Of a DNA stretch of 64,000 nt, positions 16,076 to 30,096 are shown one piece after another. Within the stretch, counting starts at the first letter, position 1. Every line of letters begins with the position of its first letter. The DNA lies in the NCBI RefSeq assembly GCF_005871085.1, contig NZ_VAUP01000038.1, positions 124,001 to 188,000 of the forward strand. The letters are read 5' to 3'. Source of the stretch: Xanthobacter autotrophicus (GTDB lineage: Bacteria > Pseudomonadota > Alphaproteobacteria > Rhizobiales > Xanthobacteraceae). The notes under the pieces are model-generated. The model had not been told where the DNA came from and did not search any database. It was given only the letters and a program-made list of their open reading frames with translations. The position numbers were made by a program, and so were the translations under genes.

Positions 16076-17287
16076 TCACTGCGGCCGGCGGCGCACCGCG
16101 AAGGCGGTCAGCACCGCGAGGCCGAGGGGGATGGCCGCGCCCACGAACACCAGGCGCGGCAGGTGGTGGTCGAGCATGAGGCCGAACATCAGCGGGCCCA
16201 GCAGCGCGCCGATGTCGTAGCCCGAATACACCACCCCGAACACCTTGCCGGTCGCCCCCGCCGGCGCGGCACCGCGCACCAGCACGTCGCGGGACGGCGT
16301 GGTCATGCCCATGGCGAAGCCCACCAGCGCCACCAGGCCCACAGTCACCTCGGGCGGTACCACCAGCAGGGCCGCGAGCAGCGCCAGCGCGCAGGCGCAG
16401 GCGAGCCCGCCCATGGCGATGAGGTGATGGCTGGCGGTGCGGTCCGCCACCGCCCCGCCCAAAGCGACGCCCGCCGCATTGCCGCATTGGTAGAGCGCGA
16501 CCGCCAGCGTCGCCAGCGCCACCGTGGCGCCGAAGCCCTCCTTCAGGGCGACGATGGAGAAGCTCTGGATGCCGGTGAGCGAGATAGAGGTGAGCACGAA
16601 ATACAGGAAGGCCGTGAGCACCACCGGCATGGCCAGCACCTGGAGGAAGGTGGGGGCGGGTCCGTGCGCGGCCTTGGCGCCGTGCGCGCCGGCATGGTCC
16701 GGATCAACCCTCAAAGCCTTGCGGCAGACGAGGAGAACGAGGCCGAGCACCACCACGCCCGCCCCCATGGCGCCGAGCGCCACCCGCCAGCCATAAGCCG
16801 AGCTGATGGCGGCGGAAACGAGGGGCGACAGCGCAAAGCCGATGCTGCCAGCGATCACATGGGCGGCGAAGGCGCGCCCGAGCCGGGCTGGCGCCACCTT
16901 GTGGCTGAGGATGGAAAGATCGGCCGGGTGGTAGACCGCATTGCCGAGGCCGGCGAGGGCGGCGAGGGGCAGGAGGACCAGATAATGGGGCGCAAGGCCC
17001 ATGGCGGCCGTGGCCGTACCTTGCAGCAGCAGGCCGCCCAGCAGCAGGCGATGGGCGCCGAAGCGGTCCACGAGGATGCCGGCGGTCACCTGGCCCAGGC
17101 CGGAGCATAGGTAGAAGACCGAGAGCACCACGCCCAAGGCGAAGAAGGAGACGCCAAGATCGGCGCGCATCATCAGGAACAGGGGGGCGAGGGCGAGCTG
17201 GAGCAGGTGGCTGCAGAAATGGGCGACGCCCACCGCGCCGATGGTGGAGATTTCCCCGGCCGGCCATTCGGCCGTTCGCGCATTCAT
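16076..17287 (-). CDS. MFS transporter (fosmidomycin-resistance-like group)
   Basis: 403 residues, twelve predicted helices. GLGNAVYHPADLSILS after helix 4 and VDRFGAHRLLLGG are typical of the Fsr-like branch of drug and metabolite exporters. The start chosen is MNARTAEWP; an upstream Met at 17320 adds eleven residues. It converges on the FAD-oxidase gene with a 12-base gap. The exported compound is unknown; nothing links it to the neighbouring operon but position. Confidence 0.8.
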   Translation of the reverse strand: MNARTAEWPAGEISTIGAVGVAHFCSHLLQLALAPLFLMMRADLGVSFFALGVVLSVFYLCSGLGQVTAGILVDRFGAHRLLLGGLLLQGTATAAMGLAPHYLVLLPLAALAGLGNAVYHPADLSILSHKVAPARLGRAFAAHVIAGSIGFALSPLVSAAISSAYGWRVALGAMGAGVVVLGLVLLVCRKALRVDPDHAGAHGAKAAHGPAPTFLQVLAMPVVLTAFLYFVLTSISLTGIQSFSIVALKEGFGATVALATLAVALYQCGNAAGVALGGAVADRTASHHLIAMGGLACACALALLAALLVVPPEVTVGLVALVGFAMGMTTPSRDVLVRGAAPAGATGKVFGVVYSGYDIGALLGPLMFGLMLDHHLPRLVFVGAAIPLGLAVLTAFAVRRRPQ

Positions 17288-17531
17288 GGTCACGGTCGAC
17301 ACCCCTCTCCGGGCCGGCATGATGCCGTCCCTCCCGGCGCTGGCCGCCGGTTGTTGCGCCTCCCCTCGTCTGGTCTGTGGCGGGGTTGGTCCCTCGCCCT
17401 TATGCTCTCGTGTCCGCTCGCGCGGGCAGGGTGTCTTACCCTGTTGCCGCCGTCGCCGTCACCCTCGAAGCGGAGCGCGGGCCTTCACGTTTGCGCACGG
17501 TCCGTGTCGGCAGGGGGCGCTTATCTGGCGC

Positions 17532-19583
17532 TCACCTGGTGCGGCGGGGGCCGTGGCCGCCGAAATAGCGCAGCGTCAGGCAGGTGATGTCGTCGGCCTG
17601 CGGCGCGCCGCGCTCGAACACATGGACCGAGGCGAGCACGCGCTCCGACAGTTCGGGTACCGACCAGTCCGCCGCGCCGCTCTTGAGCAGGTCTTCCAGC
17701 CGCTCCTCGCCATAGGGCCGCTCGTCCACGTCGAAGGCCTCGGTGACGCCATCGGTATAGAAGAAGAGCGTGTCGCCAGGCTGGAGATGGAGTTCGTGCT
17801 CCACATAGACGAAGCCCTCCAGCACTGCCACCGCCATGCCGCCGGTGGAGGGCATGGTGGAGACCTCGCCCGCGCGGGTGATGCGATAGGGCAGGTTGTG
17901 GCCGGCATTCACATAGGTGACGCGCCCGGAGGACAGGTCGATCACGCCATAGAGCACGGTGACGAACAGCATCTGCTCGTTCTCCACCGCCAAAAGGTCG
18001 TTCAGGCGGCGGATGGAGCTGGCCGGCGAGCGCTCGAACAGCGCGGTGGAGCGCAGCAGCGTGCGGGCGATCGCCATGAACAGCGCCGCCGGCACGCCCT
18101 TGCCGGAGACATCCGCCACCACGAAGCCGAGCGTGGTGTCGTCGATCATGAAGTAATCGTAGAAGTCGCCGCCCACCTCGCGGGCCGGCGTCATCTGGCC
18201 ATGGATGGCGACGCGGGCGTCGGGCGGGAATTCCTTGGGCAGGATGGCGAGCTGCACCTGCCGGGCGATCTCCAGTTCCTGCTGCAGGCCGGCGAGCTTG
18301 GTTTTGGTGATGAGGGCTTCGCGCAGTTCCACCACCATGGAGGACAGCCGGGTGTGCTGCTCCACGATGCGCCGCGACAGATCGTGCAGCACGCGGGCGA
18401 CACGCCGCAGTTCGTCGTCCTGCTCGCCCTCGGAGCCGCGGGCGAGCAGCGCGAGCACTTCCTCGCGGTCGGTGGGATCGATAGCGTCGGCCAGTGCCTG
18501 GAGCTCGGCGGAGATGACCGCCTCCTGCCGGCGGCGCACGCGCTCGCGCTGGCGCCGGGTCTCGGCGAGGGCCTGCACATTGCCGCGCAGGGCGAGCACG
18601 GCGGAGGCGATGCGGCCGATCTCGTCATTGCCCACATGCCCGACGGTGACGGAAGTGTCGCCCCGCGCCAGGGCCTGGAGCACGTCGATGGCCGATTCCA
18701 GCGGACGGAAGCTGTACCAGAGGAAGACGTTGAGCCCGATGACGCCGATCAGCACCAGGCCGATGGCACCGGCCACCGCCGACTGGCGGATGAAGGCGGT
18801 GGCCTGCACCGTCTCCGTGGTGTCCTCGAAGCTCACCAGCGCGCCCACGGTACTGGCGCTGATGTCGGAAACGGGAATGCTCGTCACGTTGTAGTTGCGC
18901 CCGTCCAGCACCATCCGTTCAGAGGTGGGCCGGCGGGGCGTGATGGCGAGCTTGGCCCGTTCCCACAGGCGGAAATCGGTGCTGGCCACCACCCGGCCCC
19001 GCAGGGTGACGAGGGTGGTGACGGCGCTGAGCCCGCGGGCGAAGCGCTCCATGCCAAGGGCAGCGTCGCGCCCGAGCACGAGGACTACCGTGCCCTTGCC
19101 CGGCAATTCCACGGTGCGGGTGGTGAGCACGATGACCTGGTTGGCGCTCACCTGCCGAAGGCCGGACAGGACCTCGCCCTTGAGCGCCCGATCGAGGCTG
19201 CCGGCGTCGAGGATGTAGCGGTTGGTGGAGCCGCCGTCGCTGAACATCACCTCGCGGTCGGCGCTCACCACCTCGAAATAGGTGGCATCGTCGGAGATGT
19301 TGACGCCCAGTTCCTGGAGCGCGGCGGAGACGCCTGGCCGGTCCGAGAAGCCGAGGGCGATGCGGAAGGCGGGGGAGCCGTCCACGCGCTCGATGATGCG
19401 GGCGAGGTTGGCCGTCTGGAAGGCGACGATCTCGCGCCACAGCACGGTCTGGCCCTCGATGGCCAGCTCCGCCTCCTGGGCCTCGGCCACGCGGTCGCGC
19501 AGCAGGGTGGCGCCCCAGATGCCGAGCATGAGGACGGCGAAGCCGGTGGCGACGATAAGCGTGATGCGGGTGCGCAGCAGCAT
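17532..19583 (-). CDS. membrane-anchored SpoIIE-type (PP2C) protein phosphatase with HAMP domain
   Basis: 683 residues in order: TM1 (7-27), an extracytoplasmic sensor-like region (about 28-265), TM2 (266-290), HAMP (291-345), a charged coiled linker and a PPM/SpoIIE phosphatase (about 440-675). Metal ligands are intact: GGDFYDY (471-477), DVSGKGVPAA (491-500), DGVTEA (611-616) and DDITCL (664-669). RsbU/SpoIIE-type enzymes remove phosphate from STAS antagonists; two STAS genes and an RsbW-like kinase gene lie a few kilobases away. It is the last gene of a three-gene block, its ATG overlapping the upstream stop. Confidence 0.92.
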   Translation of the reverse strand: MLLRTRITLIVATGFAVLMLGIWGATLLRDRVAEAQEAELAIEGQTVLWREIVAFQTANLARIIERVDGSPAFRIALGFSDRPGVSAALQELGVNISDDATYFEVVSADREVMFSDGGSTNRYILDAGSLDRALKGEVLSGLRQVSANQVIVLTTRTVELPGKGTVVLVLGRDAALGMERFARGLSAVTTLVTLRGRVVASTDFRLWERAKLAITPRRPTSERMVLDGRNYNVTSIPVSDISASTVGALVSFEDTTETVQATAFIRQSAVAGAIGLVLIGVIGLNVFLWYSFRPLESAIDVLQALARGDTSVTVGHVGNDEIGRIASAVLALRGNVQALAETRRQRERVRRRQEAVISAELQALADAIDPTDREEVLALLARGSEGEQDDELRRVARVLHDLSRRIVEQHTRLSSMVVELREALITKTKLAGLQQELEIARQVQLAILPKEFPPDARVAIHGQMTPAREVGGDFYDYFMIDDTTLGFVVADVSGKGVPAALFMAIARTLLRSTALFERSPASSIRRLNDLLAVENEQMLFVTVLYGVIDLSSGRVTYVNAGHNLPYRITRAGEVSTMPSTGGMAVAVLEGFVYVEHELHLQPGDTLFFYTDGVTEAFDVDERPYGEERLEDLLKSGAADWSVPELSERVLASVHVFERGAPQADDITCLTLRYFGGHGPRRTR

Positions 19584-20416
19584 CAGACGCCCCGTTCCTT
19601 CTCGGCCGCGCCGGGTGCGGCCAGCACCTCACGCCGCACCCGCTCCACGTCCGGCCGCAATCCTCCGTCGAAATCCACGGCCAGCAATTCCTCCGCATAG
19701 GCCTCGAACACGGCGCGGCGATCGGCGACCCGCCGGTTGCCGCGCTCCAGCGCCCGGAGCGCGCGGCCCACCGCGCCGTGGGGGCCGGACCGGCGGTTGT
19801 AGCGCTGGGGGTCGTCGGAGGTGCCGTATTCGCCCTCCACCGCCCCGATGAGGCCCTCGGTGAGTCGGGTGCGGCTGCGCTCCAGGGCGCCGCCCACCAG
19901 CAGGCCGGCGGCAAGGGCCGCGAGGGCGGCGCACACCGCCACCACCACCGCCGCCTTGACGCCGATGTCGGCGAACGAGGTGGCGAGGGCTGCCGGATTG
20001 GTGGTCACCTCCACCGACGCCACCGTGTTGCCGTCCACCATCACCGGCGCGGAGACCGAATCGGTGCCCGGATGCTCGCCGATGGCGCTGCGGATCTCGC
20101 GCCCGTCGGCACCGCGCAGCACGATCTGGGTCAGGCCGGGCGTGCGCGTAAGGGTTTCGGAAAGGTGTATCTCAACCCCCGGCAGCAGCTTCAAGGGGAT
20201 GCCGAAGCGCGCGGCCTTCTCGAATTGCTGCGCCAGCGTGCGCGCCACCGACGTGCCGATGACGAGAGCGTCGCGCCGGGCGCTCTCCTCCACCCGCGTG
20301 CGGTAGCCGTTGATGAGCAGCGCCGCGGCGGCGGAGCCCAGGAGAAAGGTGACGAGGAGGGCAAACAGGCCGGTCAACAGGCGGGCGCGTCCCCCCTCCG
20401 CAAACTCATGCCGCAT
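19583..20416 (-). CDS. two-helix membrane protein, probable extracytoplasmic sensor
   Basis: 277 residues. One helix near residues 14-36 (TGLFALLVTFLLGSAAAALL), an outside domain of about 115 residues with LTQIVLRGADGREIRSAIG, a second helix (VVVAVCAALAALAAGLLVG) and a cytoplasmic tail of about 100 residues rich in Arg and Glu. The segment 'hydrophobic strand, aspartate, G.E..' resembles Cache/PAS-like sensor folds, as in the four neighbours. No catalytic domain is present. The start overlaps the upstream gene by 11 bases and its stop overlaps the phosphatase start, so it may feed signals to the phosphatase. Confidence 0.55.
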   Translation of the reverse strand: MRHEFAEGGRARLLTGLFALLVTFLLGSAAAALLINGYRTRVEESARRDALVIGTSVARTLAQQFEKAARFGIPLKLLPGVEIHLSETLTRTPGLTQIVLRGADGREIRSAIGEHPGTDSVSAPVMVDGNTVASVEVTTNPAALATSFADIGVKAAVVVAVCAALAALAAGLLVGGALERSRTRLTEGLIGAVEGEYGTSDDPQRYNRRSGPHGAVGRALRALERGNRRVADRRAVFEAYAEELLAVDFDGGLRPDVERVRREVLAAPGAAEKERGV

Positions 20417-21152
20417 CGTCGAGCGCTCCCAGCTGGCCGAGGCCGCGGTCGACCCGGGCCTCGGCATCGCGCCAGCTTTTCAACGTGTCATCGGCGAGCT
20501 GGGTAAGGGCGCCGTCGTCGTTCGATGTCACACCCTCCCCGCTGAGGATGCGGGCGGCCCGGTCGAACGGCCGGGTCATGACGTAGGCGAAGGCCACGGC
20601 GGCCAGGGTGGCGGCCAGGGCGGCGGCCAGGATCAGGATCGCCGTGCGGGAGATGAGGTCGAGGCCGAGGCGGTCGGCGCGGGAGCTGCGCGCCTCGTCC
20701 GAGACGGTCACGGAAATGCCGCCGGCGACCCCGAGGTCGTTCTCGAATCGGGTGCCGAACACAGTGTCGCCGCGCTCCGCCGCGGTCCACACCTCGTCGG
20801 TGGATAGGCGGCGCACCCAGTCCGGGGCGACCTCCTCGCCGATGACGCTGCGGTCGGTGGAATAGATGGCGCGGCCGGCGCCATTGAAAATGTCGATGGC
20901 GAGGATGGAGGGGTCGCTCGCCTTCTCGCGCTCGATGCGCGGTTGCAGCAGCGAGATCTGGTCGAGCAGCAGGCCGATGGAGAGGTTGGCCTCGGTGGAG
21001 GCGCGCAGGGTGCCCAGCAGGTTGGCGACGCGGGCGCGCTCGATCTCCTCGCCGACCTTGTCGCTCGCCGTGAAGGCGATGGCCGCCACCGCGATCACCG
21101 CAGCGCTCACGGAAAGGACAGCGACCAGGATGAGCCGGCTTACGAAAGTCAT
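20406..21152 (-). CDS. two-helix membrane protein, probable extracytoplasmic sensor with HAMP-like tail
   Basis: 248 residues: TM1 (LILVAVLSVSAAVIAVAAIAF without the first charged residues), an outside domain of roughly 130 residues containing ILAIDIFNGAGRAIYSTDRS, TM2 (TAILILAAALAATLAAVAFA) and a short tail beginning TRPFDRAARILSG that looks like the start of a HAMP helix. The outside motif is typical of Cache-like sensors. First gene of the three-gene minus-strand block ending in the SpoIIE-type phosphatase. No enzyme domain and no recognised family. Confidence 0.55.
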   Translation of the reverse strand: MTFVSRLILVAVLSVSAAVIAVAAIAFTASDKVGEEIERARVANLLGTLRASTEANLSIGLLLDQISLLQPRIEREKASDPSILAIDIFNGAGRAIYSTDRSVIGEEVAPDWVRRLSTDEVWTAAERGDTVFGTRFENDLGVAGGISVTVSDEARSSRADRLGLDLISRTAILILAAALAATLAAVAFAYVMTRPFDRAARILSGEGVTSNDDGALTQLADDTLKSWRDAEARVDRGLGQLGALDDAA

Positions 21153-21377
21153 GCAATGAGCTTCGGTGGAAGGGTGGGCGGACGTTAACCGCCAGCTTCA
21201 AGCCAAACCAGACAAAAACTCATCTGTGACCAAAAAAACCTTCAAACTCAGATCCCTTTTCGTGGCATGTAAGGGCCTGCGGGCAAGGGTACAAGATTGC
21301 CTTTGCTGCAAGTTGCGGTCCGTCGGTACTACCACCCGGATCGCAGGACGCGGACCAGGGACACGCGGATCCAACCC
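21153..21377. promoter_or_regulatory. divergent promoter region of the signalling locus
   Basis: These 225 bases separate the phosphatase block (minus) from the transporter/STAS block (plus). The stretch around 21190-21260 is richer in A and T than its surroundings, as promoters usually are here. I could not identify a convincing -35/-10 pair or a GGAAC-type EcfG promoter, so the controlling sigma factor is unknown. Confidence 0.4.
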
Positions 21378-22082
21378 ATGGCGCGGACCACTCTCGGGCT
21401 GATCGCTGTGTTCGCACTGATCGCGGCGGCATGCGTCGCGTTCGGCGCCTACTTCTCCTATGTCACTTTGCTCAATGCCCATCGCTCGGTCATCGAGGCG
21501 CGATTCGGCATCGCCGCCGAGCGGGTCGCCGACGTGGCCGAGCAGGCCGCCTCGCTGGGCATCGCCCTGCCGGCGCAGAGCACCCTGACCAGCCTGCTGG
21601 ACCGGGAATCGCGGGTGGAACCAGCCATCCGCTCCATGGATCTGGCCGACGAGCGCGGCATCGTGCTGTTCTCGAGCGATCCGCAGCGCGTCGGCATCGC
21701 CGAGGCGCAGGACGGCGGGCGCGGTCTCACTCGGCCGGTCCGCAACGATCTCAACGAGGTCATCGGCCGTGTCGTGGTGCGGTATGATCCGCAGATCCTC
21801 GCGGCGGGCGCGGCGGCCCTCGGCGACGACCTGAAGGTGATCGCCCTGCCGGCACTGATTGGCGCGGGCGTCGCCACCATCGTCATCGGACTGCTGCTGG
21901 CCGCCCTGCTGCGCCGGGCGGTGCGGCGCGCCGCCGATCCGCAGGCGTGGCCCCCGGCGGCCCGGGCCGCCCTCGCCGCCGCGGAGAGCGTGCACAACGA
22001 GGCGGCGGGCGCATCCACAAAAGGCTGCGCCCCGTCCGGCCCATCCAAGCCGGGGCCTTCACGATCGGGGAGGCGGGCATGA
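21378..22082 (+). CDS. two-helix membrane protein, probable extracytoplasmic sensor
   Basis: 234 residues from MARTTLGLI. TM1 lies near residues 5-27, followed by an outside domain with IRSMDLADERGIVLFSSDP, TM2 (LPALIGAGVATIVIGLLLAA) and a short Arg/Ala-rich tail. The architecture and the 'DERG.vlfSs' motif match the other sensor-like proteins of the locus. First gene of the plus-strand block, overlapping the next by four bases (ATGA). It carries no output domain, so it may act by pairing with a partner in the membrane. Confidence 0.55.
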   Translation: MARTTLGLIAVFALIAAACVAFGAYFSYVTLLNAHRSVIEARFGIAAERVADVAEQAASLGIALPAQSTLTSLLDRESRVEPAIRSMDLADERGIVLFSSDPQRVGIAEAQDGGRGLTRPVRNDLNEVIGRVVVRYDPQILAAGAAALGDDLKVIALPALIGAGVATIVIGLLLAALLRRAVRRAADPQAWPPAARAALAAAESVHNEAAGASTKGCAPSGPSKPGPSRSGRRA

Positions 22083-24064
22083 TCGGGCTGCGCGGCGGCA
22101 TCACCGTCGCCATCGTGCTGATTCTGTGCTCGGCCCTCGCCTTCATCGGCTGGGGCGCCGAGCGTGCGGCGCAGCGCACCATCGCCCCCGAGATCCTGGC
22201 CAAGGCCAACACGGTGGCGCGGTCCGCCGCCGACCTCCTGGGTCGCGCCGAAACGGTCGGGGTCCCATTCGACCGGCTGGTGGGGGTGAGCGCATATTTC
22301 GAGAGCCTGCGCGCCGCCAATCCGGAATTCGCGCAGATCAGCCTCGTCTCGGCGGCGGGCACGGAGCTGGCCAGTGCGGGCGACGCCGCCGACTTCGAGG
22401 GCGCGCCGCAGGCCCGCGTTCCAGTGGCCGTGCCGTCCGGGAAAAGACTCGGCGACGTGGTGATCGTGGTGGACCCCACGGCGGTCACCGCCCAGGTCGG
22501 CGCGGTGCTGGTGGACGTGGCCTTCATCGGTATCGTCTCCCTGCTGGTGGCGCTGGAGCTGGTGGCGCTGGTGGTCGGCTCGCGCGGCATCGGCGCGCTC
22601 ATGGCGGTGGAACGGCGCCTGAAGGCGCTGGGGCGGGGCGTGCTGGCGCGGCACGAAGGCAATCCCGGGGCCGCCGGCAATCTCGTCGAGCCCATCGATC
22701 GCCAGGTGGATGCCCTGGCCGAGCGCCACGCGGCGATCAGGGCTGCGGCGCAGGCCCGGGGCGACGCCACGGCGCTCTCCCGGCTCGCGGACCTTGAAAC
22801 CCGGACCGGCCTCGGCCAGGTCCAGGCGGCGGAGAGCGAGGCCGCCATCGCGGTGCGTCCCGCCCTGTTCCTGTTCATGCTGGCGGAGGAACTGACGCGG
22901 CCGTTCCTGCCGCGGTTCGCCCAGTCCATCGCCGGCAGCGGCGCGTTCTCGCCGGATTTCGCGGCCAGCCTTCCCATCGTCGCCTTCATGGCCGTGGTGG
23001 CCCTGTGCCAGGTGCCGTTCGCCGGCATCTCCGAACGGCTCGGCCGGCGGCCGGGATTCGTCATCGGCGCCCTGCTGGCGGCCACCGGCTATGCGCTTTC
23101 AGCGGTCAGCCCCACCTATGGCCTGTTCGTGGGCGCCCGCATCGCCACGGCGGTGGGCTACGCCCTCGTCTTCGTCTCCTCCCAGGGCCATGTGGTGGAC
23201 TTTTCCGCCGGGGCGGCGCGCAGCGCGGCGCTCGCCGTGTTCGTGCGGGCCATTATGGTGGCGAGCCTCTGCGGGCCGCCCATCGGCGGCGTCATCGCCG
23301 ACCGGCTGGGGGCGCCCAGCGCCTTCATGGCCTCCGCCGGCCTTGCCCTCGTGGCCCTCGTGGTGGCGCTCCTGACCCTGCCGAAGACGGTCCGGCGCGC
23401 GGGCGCTGCGGCAGGCATCGGCCTTTCCGATCTCAAGGACGCGGCGCGGGCGCCGGGCCTCATGGCGCTGCTGTTCGGCTGCGCCTTCCCCGCCAAGTTC
23501 CTGTTCGCCGCCCTGTGCTTCCTCCTGGTGCCGCTGGAATTGCAGCGCCTCGGCTACAGCTCCGCCGCCATCGGCCGCTTCCAGATGATTTATCCCATCA
23601 TCATGGTGCTGGCGGTGCCGTTCTTCGCCGCCATGGCCGACCGGTTCGACGCCCGCGGCGGCTTCGTGGTGGCCGGGGCGCTGGTGTCGGGACTCGGCGC
23701 CATGGCCATGGTGCTCCATCCGTCGATCGCCTTCATCGTGGTGGCGCTGGTGACGCTGGGCTACGGGCAGGCCATGTCCATCGCCTCCCAGTCGGCGCTG
23801 GTGGCGGACACAGCCTCGGCCCTCGGCGGCGGCCGGGCAGCCGGTGTTCTCGGCCTGTTCCGGCTGGTGGAACGCAGCGGCAATGCCGCCGGCCCCGCCA
23901 GCGCCGGTTTTCTCATGGCGACCATCGGATTTGCCCCGGCGACGGCGCTTATCGGCATGGTGGTAGTAGCCGGAGCGGCCCTGTTTGCGCTATCGGGGCT
24001 TAGAACCGCGCATCACCCCCGCCGCGCCTCGTCCGCGGCCGCATCGGAAGGAAGCTCCGCCTGA
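22079..24064 (+). CDS. fusion of an extracytoplasmic sensor domain to an MFS transporter
   Basis: 661 residues. The first third repeats the locus's sensor design: TM1 (GGITVAIVLILCSALAFIGW), an outside domain with QISLVSAAGTELASAG, TM2 near 145-170 and a HAMP-like cytoplasmic linker. From about residue 260 comes a twelve-helix MFS domain (RPALFLFMLAEELTRPFLP, GISERLGRRPGFVIG, RLGAPSAFMASAGLAL). I know of no common family with this order. The start overlaps the previous gene and the stop overlaps the next. A transporter with a built-in sensor suggests a receptor that reports on, or is gated by, an outside ligand. Confidence 0.8.
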   Translation: MIGLRGGITVAIVLILCSALAFIGWGAERAAQRTIAPEILAKANTVARSAADLLGRAETVGVPFDRLVGVSAYFESLRAANPEFAQISLVSAAGTELASAGDAADFEGAPQARVPVAVPSGKRLGDVVIVVDPTAVTAQVGAVLVDVAFIGIVSLLVALELVALVVGSRGIGALMAVERRLKALGRGVLARHEGNPGAAGNLVEPIDRQVDALAERHAAIRAAAQARGDATALSRLADLETRTGLGQVQAAESEAAIAVRPALFLFMLAEELTRPFLPRFAQSIAGSGAFSPDFAASLPIVAFMAVVALCQVPFAGISERLGRRPGFVIGALLAATGYALSAVSPTYGLFVGARIATAVGYALVFVSSQGHVVDFSAGAARSAALAVFVRAIMVASLCGPPIGGVIADRLGAPSAFMASAGLALVALVVALLTLPKTVRRAGAAAGIGLSDLKDAARAPGLMALLFGCAFPAKFLFAALCFLLVPLELQRLGYSSAAIGRFQMIYPIIMVLAVPFFAAMADRFDARGGFVVAGALVSGLGAMAMVLHPSIAFIVVALVTLGYGQAMSIASQSALVADTASALGGGRAAGVLGLFRLVERSGNAAGPASAGFLMATIGFAPATALIGMVVVAGAALFALSGLRTAHHPRRASSAAASEGSSA

Positions 24065-25122
24065 TGGACCGCCGCTCCCTCCTCGCCCTGGGCCTCGGCG
24101 CCGGCGCCGCGGGGCTCGCCGGCCGGCTGCCCGGCGCCCATGCCCAGCCGTCCGCCAATGGGCAGGCCGGCCCCGGAGCGGCCGCCGCGCCGCGGTCCGA
24201 GCCGTTCCGCGTCCTGATGCTCACCTTCCGGGGCGATACCGACGTGGAGCGGGGCTTCCGCGACTATTTCGCCGCCAATGAGATCAAGGTGGAGTTTCTC
24301 ACCCGCGACGTGGAGCGCGACGCCAGCCGGGTAAAGCCGATCCTGGCGGAGGTGCTGCCCACCTTCAAGCCGGATCTCATCTATACCTACGGCACCCCCA
24401 ACACCCTTGCCGTCGCCGGCCCCTACGACGCTCCGCCGGATTCGCCCTACGTGCACGACATCCCGGTGGTATTCGCGCTGGTGGCGGCGCCGGTGCAGGT
24501 GAAGATCGCGCCCTCTCTCGCGTCCTCCGGGCGCAACGTCACCGGCGCGGTGCATGTGGTGCCCACCGACGTGCAGATGCGCGCCATGCAGAGCTACAAG
24601 GCGTTCCGCAAGGTGGGTGTCATCTACTCGCCGAACGAGCGCAACTCGGTGGCCATCATCGAGGAGATGCAGGCCTTCTGCGCCGGCATCAACGCCAGCG
24701 TCATCGCCCAGCCCCTCACCATGGTGGGCAGCCGGCCCACCGGAGACGGGGTGGAAGACTTCGTCCGCAACCTGAAGGCGCAGGGCGCCGACTGGCTTTA
24801 TCTGCCGGCCGATACCTTCCTTGCCACCATCTTCGACCGGGTGGGGCCGGCGGCGCTGGCCGCGGGACTGCCCACCTTCGGCGCCACCGAATTCTTTCTG
24901 CGGGAGGGGCTCGGCCTCGTGGGACTGGTGAGCCGGTATTATTCGGTTGGCCAGCTGGCCGCCTCGAAGGCGGTGGAAGTGCTGGTGCAGCGGGTGCCCC
25001 CTCGGGATATTCCCATAGAGACGCTGCGTCGCTTCGCGCTCATCATTAATATGAACATCGCCAAGCAGCTCGGGGTGTATCCGCCCATCGCCATGCTCAA
25101 CTATGCGGAAGTGATCACCTGA
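24064..25122 (+). CDS. periplasmic substrate-binding protein (ABC_sub_bind/TrpX-like)
   Basis: 352 residues with a twin-arginine-like signal (DRRSLLALG, then an Ala/Gly-rich stretch ending near AHAQPS). The body has FRVLMLTFRGDTDVERGF, LIYTYGTPNTLAVAG, RKVGVIYSPNERNSV, DWLYLPADTF and TFGATEFFLREG, the two-lobe pattern of the ABC_sub_bind family. No ABC permease or ATPase gene accompanies it, so it may serve as the ligand-binding part of a signalling complex with the membrane sensors. Coupled by one-base overlaps to both neighbours. Confidence 0.8.
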   Translation: MDRRSLLALGLGAGAAGLAGRLPGAHAQPSANGQAGPGAAAAPRSEPFRVLMLTFRGDTDVERGFRDYFAANEIKVEFLTRDVERDASRVKPILAEVLPTFKPDLIYTYGTPNTLAVAGPYDAPPDSPYVHDIPVVFALVAAPVQVKIAPSLASSGRNVTGAVHVVPTDVQMRAMQSYKAFRKVGVIYSPNERNSVAIIEEMQAFCAGINASVIAQPLTMVGSRPTGDGVEDFVRNLKAQGADWLYLPADTFLATIFDRVGPAALAAGLPTFGATEFFLREGLGLVGLVSRYYSVGQLAASKAVEVLVQRVPPRDIPIETLRRFALIINMNIAKQLGVYPPIAMLNYAEVIT

Positions 25123-25808
25123 TGAACGCCCTGCGCGAGTTCGCACAGACCGAACCGCTCACCTCCCGCGCGCTCGGCCCGGACGACCTCGATGCGGTCG
25201 ACGCGCTGCACCACCTCGCCATCGGCCCGCTGGTGCGGCCGGAGGTGGTGAAGCCTGAGAACCGCTCGTATTTCGAGGGGATCCTCGGCGGTCGTGGCTG
25301 GACGGTCGGGCTCTACGATGGCGCTTTGCTGGTGGCCTACGGGATTCTTCAGCACGACCACACCCCCAAGGACGGGCCGCACCGTCTGCTCGGCCTGCGG
25401 CCGGAGACCAAGGTGGGCCGGCTCGCCGGGGCGTCCGTGCATCCGGCCTATCGCGGGCGGGGGCTCCAGCGGGTATTGATCGCGGCGCGGGTCAAGGCCG
25501 CGCCCGCCGACATGGTGCTGTTCTCCACCGCCGCGCCGGTGAACACGCCCAGCTGGTCGAGCCTGCTCGCCGAAGGCTTCCCCATCCACGACATCCAGCT
25601 CTTCTTCGGCGGCTATGCCCGCTATGTGCTGGTGCGCGACGGCAGCACCTATGATCCGGCGGAAGCGGTGCTGGTCGATCCGCTCGACACCGAGCGGCAG
25701 AAGGCGCTGTTCGCCCAAGGCTCCCATGGCTACGAGCGCAGCCGGCTGGAATGCGGCGCTGCGGGCGTCCTGTTCGCGCCGCCCCGAAAGGGAACGGCGG
25801 AGGCCTGA
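25122..25808 (+). CDS. GNAT-family N-acetyltransferase
   Basis: 228 residues. The acetyl-CoA site is clear: ASVHPAYRGRGLQRVLI at about residues 105-121, the usual V-x-P-x-x-R-G-x-G-x motif, preceded by substrate-side strands (GWTVGLYDGALLVAYG). The final 60 residues are not part of the core fold. Its substrate could be a protein of the locus or a small molecule; sequence does not say. Last gene of the first overlapping run; a 138-base gap follows before the STAS gene. Confidence 0.8.
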   Translation: MNALREFAQTEPLTSRALGPDDLDAVDALHHLAIGPLVRPEVVKPENRSYFEGILGGRGWTVGLYDGALLVAYGILQHDHTPKDGPHRLLGLRPETKVGRLAGASVHPAYRGRGLQRVLIAARVKAAPADMVLFSTAAPVNTPSWSSLLAEGFPIHDIQLFFGGYARYVLVRDGSTYDPAEAVLVDPLDTERQKALFAQGSHGYERSRLECGAAGVLFAPPRKGTAEA

Positions 25809-25946
25809 GGACAAAAACTCTGAGGGCGAAGGCTCCGGCGTGGTTCGCCGGTGTTTCCGCGTCCGGCGGTTTTCACTAAGCTGTCGCGGCCGGCGGGCCA
25901 CCTTGTGGCCGGTTCGGCCCGCTTTGATGGTGAGAGACACGCGCGC

Positions 25947-26297
25947 ATGAAGATCGAGAGTCAGCCGCTCGGACCCGGCCTCGTCCTCGTCAGCCTCGAC
26001 GGGCGTCTCGACATTTCCGGCGCTGCCCTGGTGGAGACGCAGTTCAAGGCCACCTGCGACGCGGCGAACGTGGTGCTGGTGGACCTCTCCCACACGCCGT
26101 TCATGGCCTCCATCGGAATCCGGCTGCTGCTGACGGGCGCCAAGGGGCTGCGACGCAAGGGCGGCAGCATGCACCTGTGTGCCTGCGACCCGCAGGTGGA
26201 GAAGGTTCTGATTGCAACCGGCGTGCACCAGCTGGTGGCAATCCACGCCACGCGGGATGAGGCGCTCGCCGCGGCGGGCTCCTCCAGCGGCACGTGA
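25947..26297 (+). CDS. STAS-domain anti-sigma-factor-antagonist-like protein
   Basis: 116 residues, essentially one STAS domain. The conserved segment VLVDLSHTPFMASIGIRLLL places the probable phosphorylation site at Ser55 before I-G-I. In partner switching such a protein is phosphorylated by an RsbW-type kinase and dephosphorylated by a SpoIIE/RsbU-type phosphatase. The kinase gene follows after 10 bases and the phosphatase is encoded in the divergent block. An upstream Met (25851) would add 32 residues with no domain match; the ATG at 25947 fits the fold. Confidence 0.9.
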   Translation: MKIESQPLGPGLVLVSLDGRLDISGAALVETQFKATCDAANVVLVDLSHTPFMASIGIRLLLTGAKGLRRKGGSMHLCACDPQVEKVLIATGVHQLVAIHATRDEALAAAGSSSGT

Positions 26298-26307
26298 CGG
26301 CACGCCC

Positions 26308-26751
26308 ATGTCCGCGCTGCTCGCCGAAAGCCTGATCTCCTCCCTCAATGTGGATGCACGCATCGACGACATCACCAAGGCAACCGGCTGGCTCGGCGCC
26401 CTGGCCGAAGACGAGGGCTGGTCTCAGGCCACCCGATTCGCCCTGGAGCTGTCGCTGGAAGAGGCGCTGACCAATGTGGTGTCCTATGGCTTCCAGGACA
26501 GCACCGCCGTCCCGCGCATCCGCATCGAGTGCTATCGCCTGCCGGAAGGGCGGGTGGCGGTGCGGCTGATCGACAACGGCATGGCGTTCGATCCCACCAC
26601 CATCTCCGAACCGGTGGTGCCGGCTTCCATCGAGGATGCCAAGATCGGCGGTCATGGCGTGCAGCTCATGCGCAACTTCCTGGAAACCCTCGCCTATGCC
26701 CGGGAAGGTGACGAAAATCACCTGACCCTGATTGCCGGCAAGCCGGACTGA
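26308..26751 (+). CDS. RsbW-like serine kinase (GHKL ATP-binding domain)
   Basis: 147 residues, a single GHKL ATPase fold. The N-box is LSLEEALTNVVSYGF (Glu51, Asn56), the G1 box is IDNGMAFDP (89-91 DNG) and the G2 box GGHGVQLM (114-121). Proteins of this size with this N-box are anti-sigma or anti-partner kinases of the RsbW/SpoIIAB group. It follows the STAS gene after 10 bases, the standard antagonist-kinase order. No sigma factor gene lies near, so its final target is unknown. Confidence 0.9.
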   Translation: MSALLAESLISSLNVDARIDDITKATGWLGALAEDEGWSQATRFALELSLEEALTNVVSYGFQDSTAVPRIRIECYRLPEGRVAVRLIDNGMAFDPTTISEPVVPASIEDAKIGGHGVQLMRNFLETLAYAREGDENHLTLIAGKPD

Positions 26752-26990
26752 GGCCGGTTCGGGAGCGGGGCAGGGCAAGTCGGTGAGCGCGAGAAAGGCG
26801 AGGGGCCGGCGGCGGGCGGCCGCGCGCGCTCCCCCATGGTGCTCTCCCATAGCGCTCCTGCATGACGCTCCCCCCGCCCGCGGCACCGTGGCACCGGACG
26901 GGATCGCTCCGCTGTCGTCATAATGATACAGACCCGCCGTAAGCTCGCCGGTCATCCCACTATGCCGAAAGAGGACGCTGCGGAGCAGCC

Positions 26991-28640
26991 ATGGCGATCA
27001 TTGCGCAAATTCTCGCCGGGCTGGGCCTGCTCTTCGTCGGACTGAAGATCATGTCGACGCACCTGCAACAGGCCACGGGCCGGCGGGTGCGCAATCTGCT
27101 GCGAACGGCCACCCGCTCGCCGTTCGCGGGGCTGCTGTGCGGCACGCTGGCCGGTGCGGCGACCCAGTCCTCCAATGCGGTGGCGGTCATCAGCGGCAAT
27201 CTGGTGCGCGGCGGGGTGCTCACCACCCGCGATGCCATCCCCATCGTGGCCGGCGGCAATGTGGGCACCGCCGCGCTGGTGTTCGTGGCCGCCATCGATT
27301 TCCGCCTGCTGGTGCTCTATCTGGTGGCGATGGTGGGCTTCGGCTTCCAGTTCAAGCTGGACCGCCGCCCGGCCTTCAAGGAATGGATGGGCGTCGCTCT
27401 CGGCCTCGCCCTGGTGCTGTTGGGGCTCGACTACATCAAGCAGGGGCCGCGCGCCCTCGACGTGAGCGCGCTGGCCGCCGTCCTCGACCATGGCATCTCG
27501 CCTTGGGTGGGCTTCCTGCTGGGGCTCATCGCCGCCGCTGTCAGCCAGTCCTCTTCCACGCCTACCATCCTGGTGGTGGCGCTGATGCAGTCACAGGTGC
27601 TCGGCCTCGACGATTCCATCATTATCGTCATGGGCGCCAATCTCGGCTCCGGCATCTCCGCCGTGCTCACCGCCGGCGAGCTGGAGGGCACCGGGCGGCA
27701 GCTATGCTATGTTCACGTGCTGGTGAAGGCAGTGGGCTGCCTCCTCGTCGGCGCTGTGTTGCTCGCTGCCGGATGGCTGGGGGCGGAGCCGGTGGCCCTG
27801 CTGTCGCAGATGGGGGGCGGCAAGGCGTCGGCCTCCCTGTCCCTGCTGTTCCTGGCCTTGCAGGTCGCCGGGGCGGTGCCGGTCTCCCTCGCCCGAGGGG
27901 TGACCGAGGCCATCGCCGCGCGGCTGAGCCCGCCCACCATGGAGGATAGCGCCTCCAAGCCGCGCTTCATCCACGAGCGGGCGCTGGGCGACTTCGCCAC
28001 CGCGCTGGATCTCGCCGAACAGGAGATCATGCGGCTGGTCAAGCTGCTGCCCACCCTGCTGCCGGACCTCGACCAGCAGGACCAGAGCGGGCCGGCGGAG
28101 CGGCTCGCTTTGTGGCGGGGGGCCAACGCCATCGGCGTCGCCATCGACCAGTTCCTGTCCGATCTCATCGCCCGCGGCGTGCCGAGGGGCAGCCTCCAGA
28201 CCGCCCTGCACCTGCAGGCGCTGGTGGAGACCGTGCGCACCTTGCAAGACACGCTGCACGCCTTCACCGAGGTGGTGGAGGGCTTTGCCGACCTGCCGCC
28301 CCTCGGCTTCAACCTGTCCGAATCCCTGCGCACCATCATCCTGTCCCTGGCCGACGCCACCGACGGGGATGCGGAGGACCTCGACCTCATCATCACGCTG
28401 GCCGGGGATCGCAGCGACCTGCTGAGCCGCATCCGCCGCCAGCTCGCGGCATCGGCGCTGGGCACGGGGGAGGACGCGCGCCAGCTCCTGCTCGCCACCA
28501 GCCTGTTCGAGCGCGGGGTCTGGCTGGTGCGGCGCAGCGCAGTGGCGTTGCGTGCTCCGGCGAATGAGGCTAATCCCGTGGTCAACGCGGCCTCCGGCGA
28601 GGCGCGCAAGCGAGAAGAGGCCGATGCACATCGAACGTGA
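26991..28640 (+). CDS. Na/Pi cotransporter family protein with PhoU-like C-terminal domain
   Basis: 549 residues. Two inverted membrane repeats each carry the QSS signature: GAATQSSNAVAV (about 55-66) and AVSQSSSTPTI (about 181-191). The second half, after about residue 320, is helical and soluble with LDLAEQEIMRLVKLLP and heptad-like spacing, resembling the PhoU-type tail of NptA/YjbB proteins. Members export or import phosphate with sodium. The downstream STAS gene overlaps its end by 17 bases, tying transport to the signalling locus. Confidence 0.88.
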   Translation: MAIIAQILAGLGLLFVGLKIMSTHLQQATGRRVRNLLRTATRSPFAGLLCGTLAGAATQSSNAVAVISGNLVRGGVLTTRDAIPIVAGGNVGTAALVFVAAIDFRLLVLYLVAMVGFGFQFKLDRRPAFKEWMGVALGLALVLLGLDYIKQGPRALDVSALAAVLDHGISPWVGFLLGLIAAAVSQSSSTPTILVVALMQSQVLGLDDSIIIVMGANLGSGISAVLTAGELEGTGRQLCYVHVLVKAVGCLLVGAVLLAAGWLGAEPVALLSQMGGGKASASLSLLFLALQVAGAVPVSLARGVTEAIAARLSPPTMEDSASKPRFIHERALGDFATALDLAEQEIMRLVKLLPTLLPDLDQQDQSGPAERLALWRGANAIGVAIDQFLSDLIARGVPRGSLQTALHLQALVETVRTLQDTLHAFTEVVEGFADLPPLGFNLSESLRTIILSLADATDGDAEDLDLIITLAGDRSDLLSRIRRQLAASALGTGEDARQLLLATSLFERGVWLVRRSAVALRAPANEANPVVNAASGEARKREEADAHRT

Positions 28641-28926
28641 GCAGCTCGGGTCCGAGGTGGTGCTGAAGGTGGCGGGACGGCTGGATACGCCCAACGCCAA
28701 GCCGTTCGAGGCGAGCCTCATGGAAGTGGTGACCACCACCGATGGCGGGCTCCTCGTGAACCTCGCTGGCGTGGACTATGTCTCCTCTTCGGGCCTGCGG
28801 GCCCTGCTGGTGGCCGGCAAGGCCATGCGCACCGCCAAGCGCAAGCTCACCTTGTCGTCCCTGCAGCCGCAGATCCGGGAAGTGTTCGACATTTCCGGCT
28901 TCTCGACCCTTTTCGAAATCACCTGA
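28624..28926 (+). CDS. second STAS-domain antagonist-like protein
   Basis: 100 residues, a minimal STAS domain from MHIEREQLG. The phosphorylation segment is VDYVSSSGLRALLVAG, with serines 54-56 directly before G-L-R, closer to the SpoIIAA/RsbV pattern than the first STAS protein (ASIGIR). The start lies inside the cotransporter gene (17-base overlap), so the two are translated together. It may be the switch that ties phosphate transport to the kinase and phosphatase. Its stop overlaps the first unit of a tandem repeat. Confidence 0.88.
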   Translation: MHIEREQLGSEVVLKVAGRLDTPNAKPFEASLMEVVTTTDGGLLVNLAGVDYVSSSGLRALLVAGKAMRTAKRKLTLSSLQPQIREVFDISGFSTLFEIT

Positions 28927-29015
28927 GCCCGCGCGGCGCCTGAGCGTGGCCGGAGTCTAGCCCGCGCGGCGCCTGAGCGTGGCCTGAGTCTAGCCCGCGC
29001 GGCGCCTGAGCGTGG
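28926..29015. repeat. 33-base tandem repeat, about 2.7 copies
   Basis: The unit AGCCCGCGCGGCGCCTGAGC plus GTGGCCKGAGTCT starts at 28926, 28959 and 28992. The first two copies differ by one base and the third ends after 24 bases. It fills the gap between the convergent STAS and epmA genes and begins at the last base of the STAS stop codon. Each unit contains the palindrome GGCGCC. Confidence 0.9.
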
Positions 29016-29028
29016 GTCCGGCTCCCGC

Positions 29029-30096
29029 TCAGCCGACCGGCGCCCACAGCACGTCCTCGATGCGGCGGGCGCCGCTGGCCAGCACCGCGAGGCGGTCGAA
29101 GCCGAGCGCGCAGCCGCTCGCGGGTGGCATCACCGCCAAAGCGGCCAGGAAATCGGCATCGATGGGATAGCGCTCGCCATAGAGCCGCTCTTTCTCGTCC
29201 ATCTCCTCCTCGAAGCGCCGGCGCTGCTCGTCGGCGTCGGTCAGCTCGCCGAAGGCGTTGGCCAGCTCAAGCCCGCAGGCATAAAGCTCGAAGCGCTCGG
29301 CGAAGCGCGCATCTTCCGGCTTGGGTCGGGCCAGCGCCGCCTCGCTCACCGGATAGTCGCAGAGCACCGTGGGCCGGCCCATGCCGAGCCGGGGCTCGAT
29401 CTTTTCCACCAGCACCCGCGAGAAGATGTCCGCCCAGGTGTCGTCCGGGGCGGTGCGGATGCCGTGCCCCGCCGCCATCTCGGCAAACGGCCTCGGGTCC
29501 GGCCGCTCGCCGGGGGCCGGCAGCACCGTGGCCAGCGCCATGCCGGCGTGGCGCGCGAACGCCTCTTCCAGCGTCAGCCGCTCCGGCGCGGCGAACGGGT
29601 CGCACGTGTGCCCCCGCCAGGCGAAGCTCGACACCCCGCCAGCCTCGGCGGCGCAGGCGAGCAGGCCGGCGCAATCCTCCATGAGCCGGGTATAGGGCGC
29701 GCCGGCGCGGTACCATTCCAGCAGGGTGAACTCGGGATGGTGGGCCATGCTCCGCTCCCGGTTGCGGAACACGCGGGCGAATTCGAAGATCTTCTCTTCC
29801 CCCGCCGCCAGCAGCTTCTTGGCGGCGAATTCCGGCGACGTGCGCAGGTAGAGCGTGCGCCGGGCGCCGTCCGGGCCGATGAGGTCAGTGGCGAAGGCGT
29901 GCAGGTGCGCCTCGTTGCCGGGGGAGATCTGGAGTGCCGGCGTCTCCACCTCGATGAAGCCTTCGGCGGCAAGGCGGGCGCGGATCGCCGCCATCATGCG
30001 CCCGCGGGCCAGCAGGAATGGGCGCCGGTCGGCGTGGACGGACGGGCTCCACCATGGACTGGGATCGGGGCTTGTGCCGGGCGTCGATACCGCCAT
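29029..30096 (-). CDS. epmA: elongation factor P--(R)-beta-lysine ligase
   Basis: 355 residues, a stand-alone class II lysyl-tRNA synthetase core without the anticodon-binding domain. Class II motifs are visible: RMMAAIRARLAAEGFIEVETP, EFARVFRNRERS with HHPEFTLLEWY, and GCALGFDRLAVL. EpmA attaches (R)-beta-lysine to elongation factor P. Its target gene efp is divergent 142 bases away. EpmB, which makes the beta-lysine, is not in the window. Confidence 0.93.
   Translation of the reverse strand: MAVSTPGTSPDPSPWWSPSVHADRRPFLLARGRMMAAIRARLAAEGFIEVETPALQISPGNEAHLHAFATDLIGPDGARRTLYLRTSPEFAAKKLLAAGEEKIFEFARVFRNRERSMAHHPEFTLLEWYRAGAPYTRLMEDCAGLLACAAEAGGVSSFAWRGHTCDPFAAPERLTLEEAFARHAGMALATVLPAPGERPDPRPFAEMAAGHGIRTAPDDTWADIFSRVLVEKIEPRLGMGRPTVLCDYPVSEAALARPKPEDARFAERFELYACGLELANAFGELTDADEQRRRFEEEMDEKERLYGERYPIDADFLAALAVMPPASGCALGFDRLAVLASGARRIEDVLWAPVG

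Follow-up and report, generated by a model that had tools for sequence, protein, structure and literature searches.

What signal does a bacterial partner switch read, and on what does it act, when its genes stand among membrane sensors, a binding protein and transporters instead of beside a known target? Partner switches are best known from sigma-factor control in Gram-positive bacteria. Several of those described in Gram-negative bacteria have unknown inputs and outputs (excerpts of PMC8256260). We addressed this question for a locus of Xanthobacter autotrophicus, whose genome comprises 5.01 Mb in 42 contigs (assembly GCF_005871085.1). The window analysed is a stretch of 64,000 nucleotides (contig NZ_VAUP01000038.1, positions 124,001 to 188,000), and the locus consists of eleven intact, in-frame genes that occupy positions 17532-28926 of it in two divergent blocks. 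The minus-strand block contains genes for a HAMP-SpoIIE phosphatase and two sensors, senB and senA; the plus-strand block contains, in this order, senC, the sensor-transporter fusion senMFS, a PF04392 binding protein (SBP), a GNAT-family protein, STAS1, an RsbW-like kinase, the Na/Pi cotransporter NaPi and STAS2. A sequence-only reading of the window had delineated the same eleven genes and blocks, and both the open reading frames (ORFs) and the Pfam matches agree with it. Its description of the genes as mostly overlapping holds for six of the nine within-block junctions, which overlap by 1 to 17 bases, and fails for GNAT-STAS1, STAS1-kinase and kinase-NaPi. We conclude that the locus probably joins a transmembrane ligand-sensing module to a partner-switch core with lineage-specific outputs.

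The HAMP and SpoIIE domains, MFS_1, ABC_sub_bind, the GNAT domain, both STAS domains, HATPase_c_2 and Na_Pi_cotrans all exceeded their Pfam curated cut-offs. The phosphatase has two predicted transmembrane (TM) helices, a HAMP domain at residues 290-337 and a SpoIIE domain at residues 481-673; its D473, D491, D611, D664 and D665 were invariant in 28 homologues. The same was true of E52, N56, D89, G114, G115 and G117 of the kinase (28 homologues), and Ser55 is kept throughout the 27 STAS sequences compared, those of STAS1 and STAS2 among them. We assume here that these residues map onto those of SpoIIAB, SpoIIAA and SpoIIE and that the N-box Glu/Asn, G1 and G2 of the kinase have the corresponding catalytic role. 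The kinase, the STAS antagonist and the PPM/SpoIIE phosphatase display the sequence characteristics of an RsbUVW-type system, and, as far as sequence tells, the core appears to work like a partner switch. No sigma factor was found among the eleven genes and four flanking proteins, a scan that covers the locus only. When the whole genome was searched, the locus kinase ranked first of 17 HATPase_c_2 matches (68 bits), followed by a receiver-HisKA_2 protein (51 bits). Comparison with one genome of the same genus gave ratios of nonsynonymous to synonymous substitution rates (dN/dS) of 0.05-0.25 for ten genes and zero amino-acid changes for STAS2; judged by these values, all eleven genes are under purifying selection.

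Two STAS proteins had been recognised in the initial reading, and both are present, but they are not equivalent. STAS2 shares 30-49% identity and an SSxGLR motif with the STAS proteins of loci outside Xanthobacteraceae. In STAS1, which was restricted to Xanthobacter loci among those compared, the motif reads ASIGIR and the identity to STAS2 is 29%. On the basis of these comparisons, STAS2 is the conserved core antagonist. The genome yielded two SpoIIE phosphatases and nine STAS matches; for three of the latter, the two of the locus and one at C6, the frame is 154-166 amino acids long. The gene of the second phosphatase (L060:8940-10298, contig C36) lies next to an ion-channel-like gene, and the protein includes a cyclic-nucleotide-binding domain. 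Because there are two such phosphatases and few STAS frames in the genome, this second, cyclic-nucleotide-binding enzyme may target the same STAS proteins and feed the same switch.

We then examined the input side, where senA, senB and senC matched no Pfam family above its cut-off. Profile-profile comparison revealed that these three proteins and the N-terminus of senMFS are mutually homologous, the closest pairs being senA-senC (E 1.3e-33) and senB-senMFS N-terminus (E 1.1e-24). Because the sensors pair in this way, a duplicated sensor pair underlies the divergent blocks, with one copy beside the phosphatase and the other bearing the MFS domain. Sensor profiles compared with solved structures gave no convincing relative (best E 0.084); both the sensor fold and the MFS topology were assessed from profiles of the sequences and from simple hydropathy. 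In the MFS part of senMFS, which is weakly similar to efflux families, we found a CGPPxGG motif with G399, G403 and G404 invariant and C398 and P400 conserved in at least 90% of 41 sequences; we take this to be motif C, an exporter-type signature. The nearest named match of the senMFS protein was from Xanthobacter oligotrophicus (95%). In 12 loci of further lineages (L083-L086, L089-L094, L097, L098) the senB position is held by a protein of 603-728 amino acids with about 7-12 additional hydrophobic segments and, in 9 of the 12, a GPxxGG-like motif. The tails of these long proteins did not match the senMFS MFS profile in any of the 12 loci, and of two checked with Pfam one gave an MFS match below the cut-off and one gave none. 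The additional segments are perhaps a degenerate MFS domain, possibly with a sensing role.

The best relatives of the binding protein in the PDB were 6hni, 3lkv and 3lft, which hold tyrosine, phenylalanine and tryptophan, respectively (excerpts of PMC6816091). The family motif residues T111, E192, N194, S195 and D250 were retained in 35-37 of 38 homologues, and the Asp of the DPV motif was Ala in 29 of the 38 and Asp in 2. By eye, the N-terminus of the protein looks like a twin-arginine leader. No ABC permease or ATPase was present among the genes identified between 13503 and 30808, where the FAD oxidase and EF-P were named by eye.

To what extent is this arrangement kept outside the genus? 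A search with an alignment of 16 senMFS proteins yielded 67 named loci (L numbers). They came from Xanthobacter, Azorhizobium, Aquabacter, Chelatococcus, Mesorhizobium, Jiella, Albimonas, Acuticoccus, Amorphus, Azospirillum and Ruegeria, and further from several Burkholderiales and Rhodocyclaceae and from Motiliproteus. Among the 54 loci that exceed 20 kb, SBP was labelled by profile in 52, SpoIIE in 49, GNAT in 46, STAS in 37, the kinase in 35, an alanine-racemase paralogue in 21, NaPi in 14, a nucleotide cyclase in 7 and TssK in 7. These counts rely on gene calls made in this analysis, which may miss genes; that of SpoIIE rises to 50 with L103, where the match is only to the HAMP/sensor part of a kinase-like protein, and in L124 the gene is a fragment. 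All loci with SpoIIE belong to Alpha- or Betaproteobacteria, and in 398 genomes drawn across the phylum, own genome included, senMFS was detected at E 1e-90 in nine. Co-occurrence of the two blocks in relatives had been singled out at the start as the observation on which the idea of one locus depends. The blocks do co-occur, and the proposed union of a partner-switch core with membrane sensors and a binding protein is kept together in the large loci. In outline, the mechanism first suggested holds. Four things are new with respect to the initial description: GNAT is conserved, many loci (though not this one) have a racemase paralogue, the sensor pairs are homologous, and the neighbouring genes vary. 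What had been one eleven-gene locus is now, as judged from gene neighbourhoods, a recurring module with exchangeable neighbours.

Gene fusions gave a second line of evidence. A sensor fused to the sensor-MFS protein (the senC counterpart) occurred in 10 of the 67 loci, all betaproteobacterial (L079-L082, L095, L099-L102, L105), SpoIIE was fused to the kinase in three (L106, L110, L127), and the kinase was fused to the C-terminus of a cyclase-domain protein in four (L083, L084, L091, L096). A senB-SpoIIE fusion was found in L081 only, a metagenome-assembled contig. At the level of gene architecture, these fusions tie the signalling chain together. The distance matrices of the genes also correlated (18-29 loci per pair), with r of 0.81-0.96 among senMFS, SBP, GNAT, SpoIIE and senA (senMFS-SpoIIE 0.96, senMFS-SBP 0.93) and of 0.39-0.83 for kinase or STAS pairs, the short kinase with the others giving 0.39-0.72. 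In each of 21 gene pairs, none of 2000 permutations reached the observed correlation. For the STAS matrix, STAS1 rows (window, L065, L069) were excluded.

A search of close relatives found the kinase in 25 of 61 genomes, including our own and 13 of 13 others of the same genus. Eight of those 13 same-genus loci have all eleven genes (in one, L044, SpoIIE is truncated by the contig end) and two lack only STAS1; L038 starts at the kinase owing to a contig end.

Candidate outputs differ between lineages. In several other Alphaproteobacteria a class III nucleotide cyclase domain is fused or adjacent to the kinase: besides the four fusions, the cyclase is a separate neighbouring gene in L085, L086, L090 and L092. 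Pfam verified the domain in L083 and L085; in the others it was detected by a profile built from five sequences including those two. A weak search of the X. autotrophicus genome with the L085 cyclase, run without a positive control, was empty. In Azospirillum, TssK lies directly upstream of the module in 8 of 13 named loci (L111-L113, L120-L122, L124, L128), identified by a Pfam scan in L120 and by our own profile in the other seven, six of which also match by PF05936 positions. A Vibrio plasmid record has TssK about 19 kb away and a VgrG-like gene beside the input part, with SpoIIE not called. Of 50 genomes or records that contain relatives of the module, 25 have TssK. Because TssK (PF05936) was not found in the X. 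autotrophicus genome, regulation of type VI secretion (T6SS), considered as the module's general function, was rejected as the output here. In L120 (18891-21108), an Azospirillum locus in which the kinase is missing, receiver-domain and BON-domain proteins follow SpoIIE-STAS.

These data are consistent with the following sequence of events. The binding protein, whose solved relatives hold aromatic amino acids, would sample a small periplasmic ligand. Two homologous sensor pairs would read it: senA and senB, next to the phosphatase, and senC and senMFS, whose MFS part would move or monitor the ligand. The homology of the two pairs comes from the profile comparisons; each pair would form a complex, as the gene fusions suggest for senC and senMFS. 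The sensors would set the HAMP-SpoIIE phosphatase, as architecture, synteny and the single senB-SpoIIE fusion suggest. The RsbW-like kinase would phosphorylate STAS2 at Ser55 and the phosphatase would reverse this, activities predicted from conserved active sites. Free kinase or free STAS would then act on a lineage-dependent output, the candidates being the Na/Pi transporter in Xanthobacteraceae and, in a number of other Alphaproteobacteria, the class III nucleotide cyclase; STAS1 may be a second substrate adding a threshold or a branch.

Several observations weigh against a module of this kind. The kinase was uncalled at 19 of the 54 large loci, although this gives a lower bound on its presence (L086 has a partial raw-ORF match). 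The partner switch is at its least complete in the eight TssK-adjacent Azospirillum loci, where the kinase was called in none. At 5 of the 54 loci (L103, L104, L105, L108, L117) the input part, consisting of sensor, senMFS and SBP, occurs without SpoIIE, so it can serve other outputs; the gammaproteobacterial examples, Motiliproteus L103 and Vibrio plasmid L131, are of this type. Reduced loci exist even within the genus: that of X. tagetidis (L045) lacks SBP, GNAT, NaPi and STAS2 and retains phosphatase, sensors, kinase and STAS1, and L049 (genome G010) is reduced to STAS1-kinase-STAS2 between the FAD oxidase and EpmA-like genes, the remainder common to both being the kinase and at least one STAS protein. 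Part of the distance correlation reflects shared species history, the statistics having no species-tree control. Motif C suggests outward transport and not sensing by the MFS part. Finally, by our own gene calls NaPi is missing at 40 of the 54 large loci.

Two of the SpoIIE-less input parts also have other signalling genes within about 7 kb: a hybrid histidine kinase in L104 (4211-7216) and a receiver-GGDEF-EAL protein in L117 (1729-3891).

Because NaPi occurs in only 14 of the 54 loci, the original proposal that the switch controls the Na/Pi transporter does not describe the core of the module, and survives as a hypothesis for the NaPi-bearing lineages. A stronger version, in which setting this transporter is the purpose of the locus and STAS2 binds NaPi directly as STAS domains do in SulP transporters, is in our estimation possible but unlikely. 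It draws on the position of the gene, which in Xanthobacteraceae lies between the kinase and STAS2 and in the window overlaps STAS2 by 17 bases; in betaproteobacterial L079-L081 NaPi is immediately upstream of the sensor-MFS gene, and in L055 and L132, both lacking senMFS, NaPi is oriented towards the kinase and STAS genes, and SpoIIE is close by. The protein scored above curated cut-offs (NF037997, 101 bits, cut-off 50; PF02690, 140 bits, cut-off 29). In a tree of 39 NaPi proteins, which left out the near-copies L064 and L066 and, as falling under a 100-bit threshold, L134 and L148, one fully supported branch separated all 21 switch-linked copies and 5 free ones from 13 free ones, and the linked label changed 3 times vs 13.2 in shuffles, although most linked copies had been sampled because they were linked. 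Across 22 genomes of the order there were 24 kinase matches above 60 bits; three of them, including that of the window, have NaPi no more than 5 kb away, against a roughly estimated chance expectation of about 0.05. The absence of NaPi from most large loci and from X. tagetidis argues against this version, as do five members of the NaPi subfamily that had no switch gene within the 6-14 kb examined around them; one NaPi (G157), at a contig end, is not placeable. That the sensor-phosphatase, MFS/SBP/GNAT and kinase/STAS/NaPi blocks merely adjoin by chance we regard as highly improbable: gene order and strand do differ between lineages and parts are missing at some loci, but the core is kept in both Alpha- and Betaproteobacteria and fusions such as SpoIIE-kinase cross the block borders. 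The neighbourhood data in relatives contradict the chance-cluster reading.

A different purpose would be self-sensing or sensing between cells, with GNAT, together with the racemase where there is one, making an acylated or D-amino-acid-derived signal that the MFS part exports, the SBP and sensors detect and the switch answers. We consider this doubtful, and equally so the idea of a secreted amino-acid-derived signal circuit in which an MFS pump fused to its own sensor and an orphan SBP would serve exchangeable outputs (NaPi, cyclase, perhaps T6SS). In 19 of the 21 large loci that have it, the racemase paralogue comes immediately after GNAT; it follows SBP in L102 and is placed elsewhere in L108 (after GNAT or, in L102, SBP: L067, L068, L077, L080-L086, L089-L092, L094, L095, L099-L102). 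All 16 genomes tested carry it in addition to at least one weaker-scoring alr (127-352 bits) elsewhere; it scores 460-581 bits in 15 of them and is split into two pieces in G074. K40, Y262 and Y281 were invariant in module racemases (n=15). The invariant or nearly invariant motif C and the aromatic amino acids held by the solved SBP relatives also favour this reading, as does GNAT, whose nearest characterised enzymes, all weakly similar, are puromycin, phosphinothricin and diaminobutyrate acetyltransferases, which act on amino-acid-like compounds. Against it, GNAT resembles characterised enzymes only weakly (best E 1.9e-5, the remaining 11 listed being at least 0.0039), and there is no module racemase in the X. 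autotrophicus genome, which like that of one Azospirillum has a single alr, nor at 33 of the 54 large loci; moreover, racemase matches reported one internal stop in one module copy and in two other copies. The same acetyltransferases, and the resemblance of the MFS part to efflux families, could instead speak for a detoxification circuit that senses, acetylates and exports an amino-acid-like antimicrobial. This seems improbable, since resistance loci are not known to need as much as four sensor modules together with phosphatase, kinase and STAS proteins, and a racemase and a cyclase do not fit it. A ligand-sensing module with a partner-switch core and outputs that vary between lineages is the reading that we favour.

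With the Bacillus systems RsbU/RsbV/RsbW and SpoIIE/SpoIIAA/SpoIIAB, as presented in excerpts of PMC8256260, the locus has in common the PPM phosphatase, the STAS serine and the HATPase_c_2 kinase with its N, G1 and G2 boxes. Unlike them, it includes no sigma factor among the genes identified, and its input comes through the pairs of membrane sensors, the senMFS fusion and the periplasmic SBP. Another comparable system is SiaABC(D) of Pseudomonas aeruginosa, where SiaA is likewise a two-TM HAMP-PP2C phosphatase that acts on a STAS-like protein with a dedicated kinase, and where the output is a diguanylate cyclase and no sigma factor; the excerpts of PMC7647112 describe it without MFS, SBP or GNAT. 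The locus phosphatase scored 63 bits with the SiaA model NF038263 (cut-off 700), and no GGDEF protein, the counterpart of SiaD, was present among the locus proteins scanned. Rhodobacter capsulatus RbaV/RbaW/RbaY is a similar alphaproteobacterial set of STAS protein, kinase and phosphatase whose sigma factor was not found; in excerpts of PMC3999984 rbaVW is a predicted two-gene operon and RbaY carries a receiver domain, where the locus phosphatase has HAMP and TM sensors instead. The locus SBP shares PF04392, and similarity over most of its length, with the TrpX/CD0873-type binding proteins of aromatic amino acid ABC importers (excerpts of PMC6816091), but it scored 87 bits with the TrpX model NF041285 (cut-off 390) and, unlike those importers, has no permease or ATPase gene identified beside it. 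By these curated models, the locus is neither a SiaABC system nor a TrpX importer component.

In SypA/SypE of Vibrio fischeri and BtrUVW of Bordetella, a Gram-negative switch of STAS protein, kinase and phosphatase likewise has an output that is not a known sigma factor, and no comparable input module is mentioned for them in the excerpts of PMC8256260. TciKR of Vogesella indigofera has, as the locus does, an RsbW-like domain in a Gram-negative regulator, but there the domain forms a fusion with a receiver domain under the control of a histidine kinase, and the authors report no RsbV homologue (excerpts of PMC12826045). A search of the open-licence PubMed Central literature found no description of such a gene set, in line with the sequence-only reading, which knew of none. 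The module would supply one family of Gram-negative switches with a recurring, recognisable input in the form of SBP, sensor pairs and sensor-MFS fusion, and its fusions and lineage-specific neighbours point to outputs that can be tested: a nucleotide cyclase, the Na/Pi transporter and possibly type VI secretion. A sensor-fused transporter wired to a Ser/Thr phosphatase would, if true, be an unusual coupling of transport and signalling.

Table 1. Features of the locus, with positions in the window and the evidence for each.
Feature	Position	Strand	Evidence
SpoIIE/PPM serine phosphatase	17532..19583	-	Pfam SpoIIE 1.7e-50, HAMP 2e-7; hydropathy
senB, TM-periplasmic-TM sensor	19583..20422	-	profile-profile match to senMFS N-terminus
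senA, TM-periplasmic-TM sensor, paralogue of senC	20406..21152	-	profile-profile comparison; alignment
Intergenic stretch separating the divergent blocks, presumed regulatory	21153..21377	no strand	ORF layout
senC, TM-periplasmic-TM sensor	21378..22082	+	profile-profile comparison
senMFS, sensor module and MFS domain	22079..24064	+	Pfam MFS_1 4.2e-30
Periplasmic binding protein (SBP), PF04392, TrpX-like	24064..25122	+	Pfam 3.6e-22
GNAT-family acyltransferase	25122..25808	+	Pfam Acetyltransf_1 21.5 bits, cut-off 20.7
STAS1, additional antagonist-like protein	25947..26297	+	Pfam STAS 8.6e-15; alignment
RsbW/SpoIIAB-like serine kinase	26308..26751	+	Pfam HATPase_c_2 1.4e-18
Na/Pi cotransporter NaPi, PF02690	26991..28640	+	Pfam 7e-41; NCBIfam Na_Pi_symport 101 bits
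STAS2, core antagonist	28624..28926	+	Pfam STAS 5e-16; S55 invariant

For six genes the start adopted lies inside the longest ORF (senB 20422, senC 21378, senMFS 22079, STAS1 25947, kinase 26308 and STAS2 28624). A scan of positions 17300-29100 for sigma-70-type promoters gave no match. The flanks hold a DHDPS-family gene, an FAD-linked oxidase gene (named by eye), a class II tRNA-synthetase paralogue, presumably EpmA-like, with a neighbouring gene that we take to be EF-P, and an MFS gene. The last of these, separate from senMFS, lies at 16076-17320 on the minus strand, adjoins the phosphatase and is kept at many, not all, Xanthobacteraceae loci.

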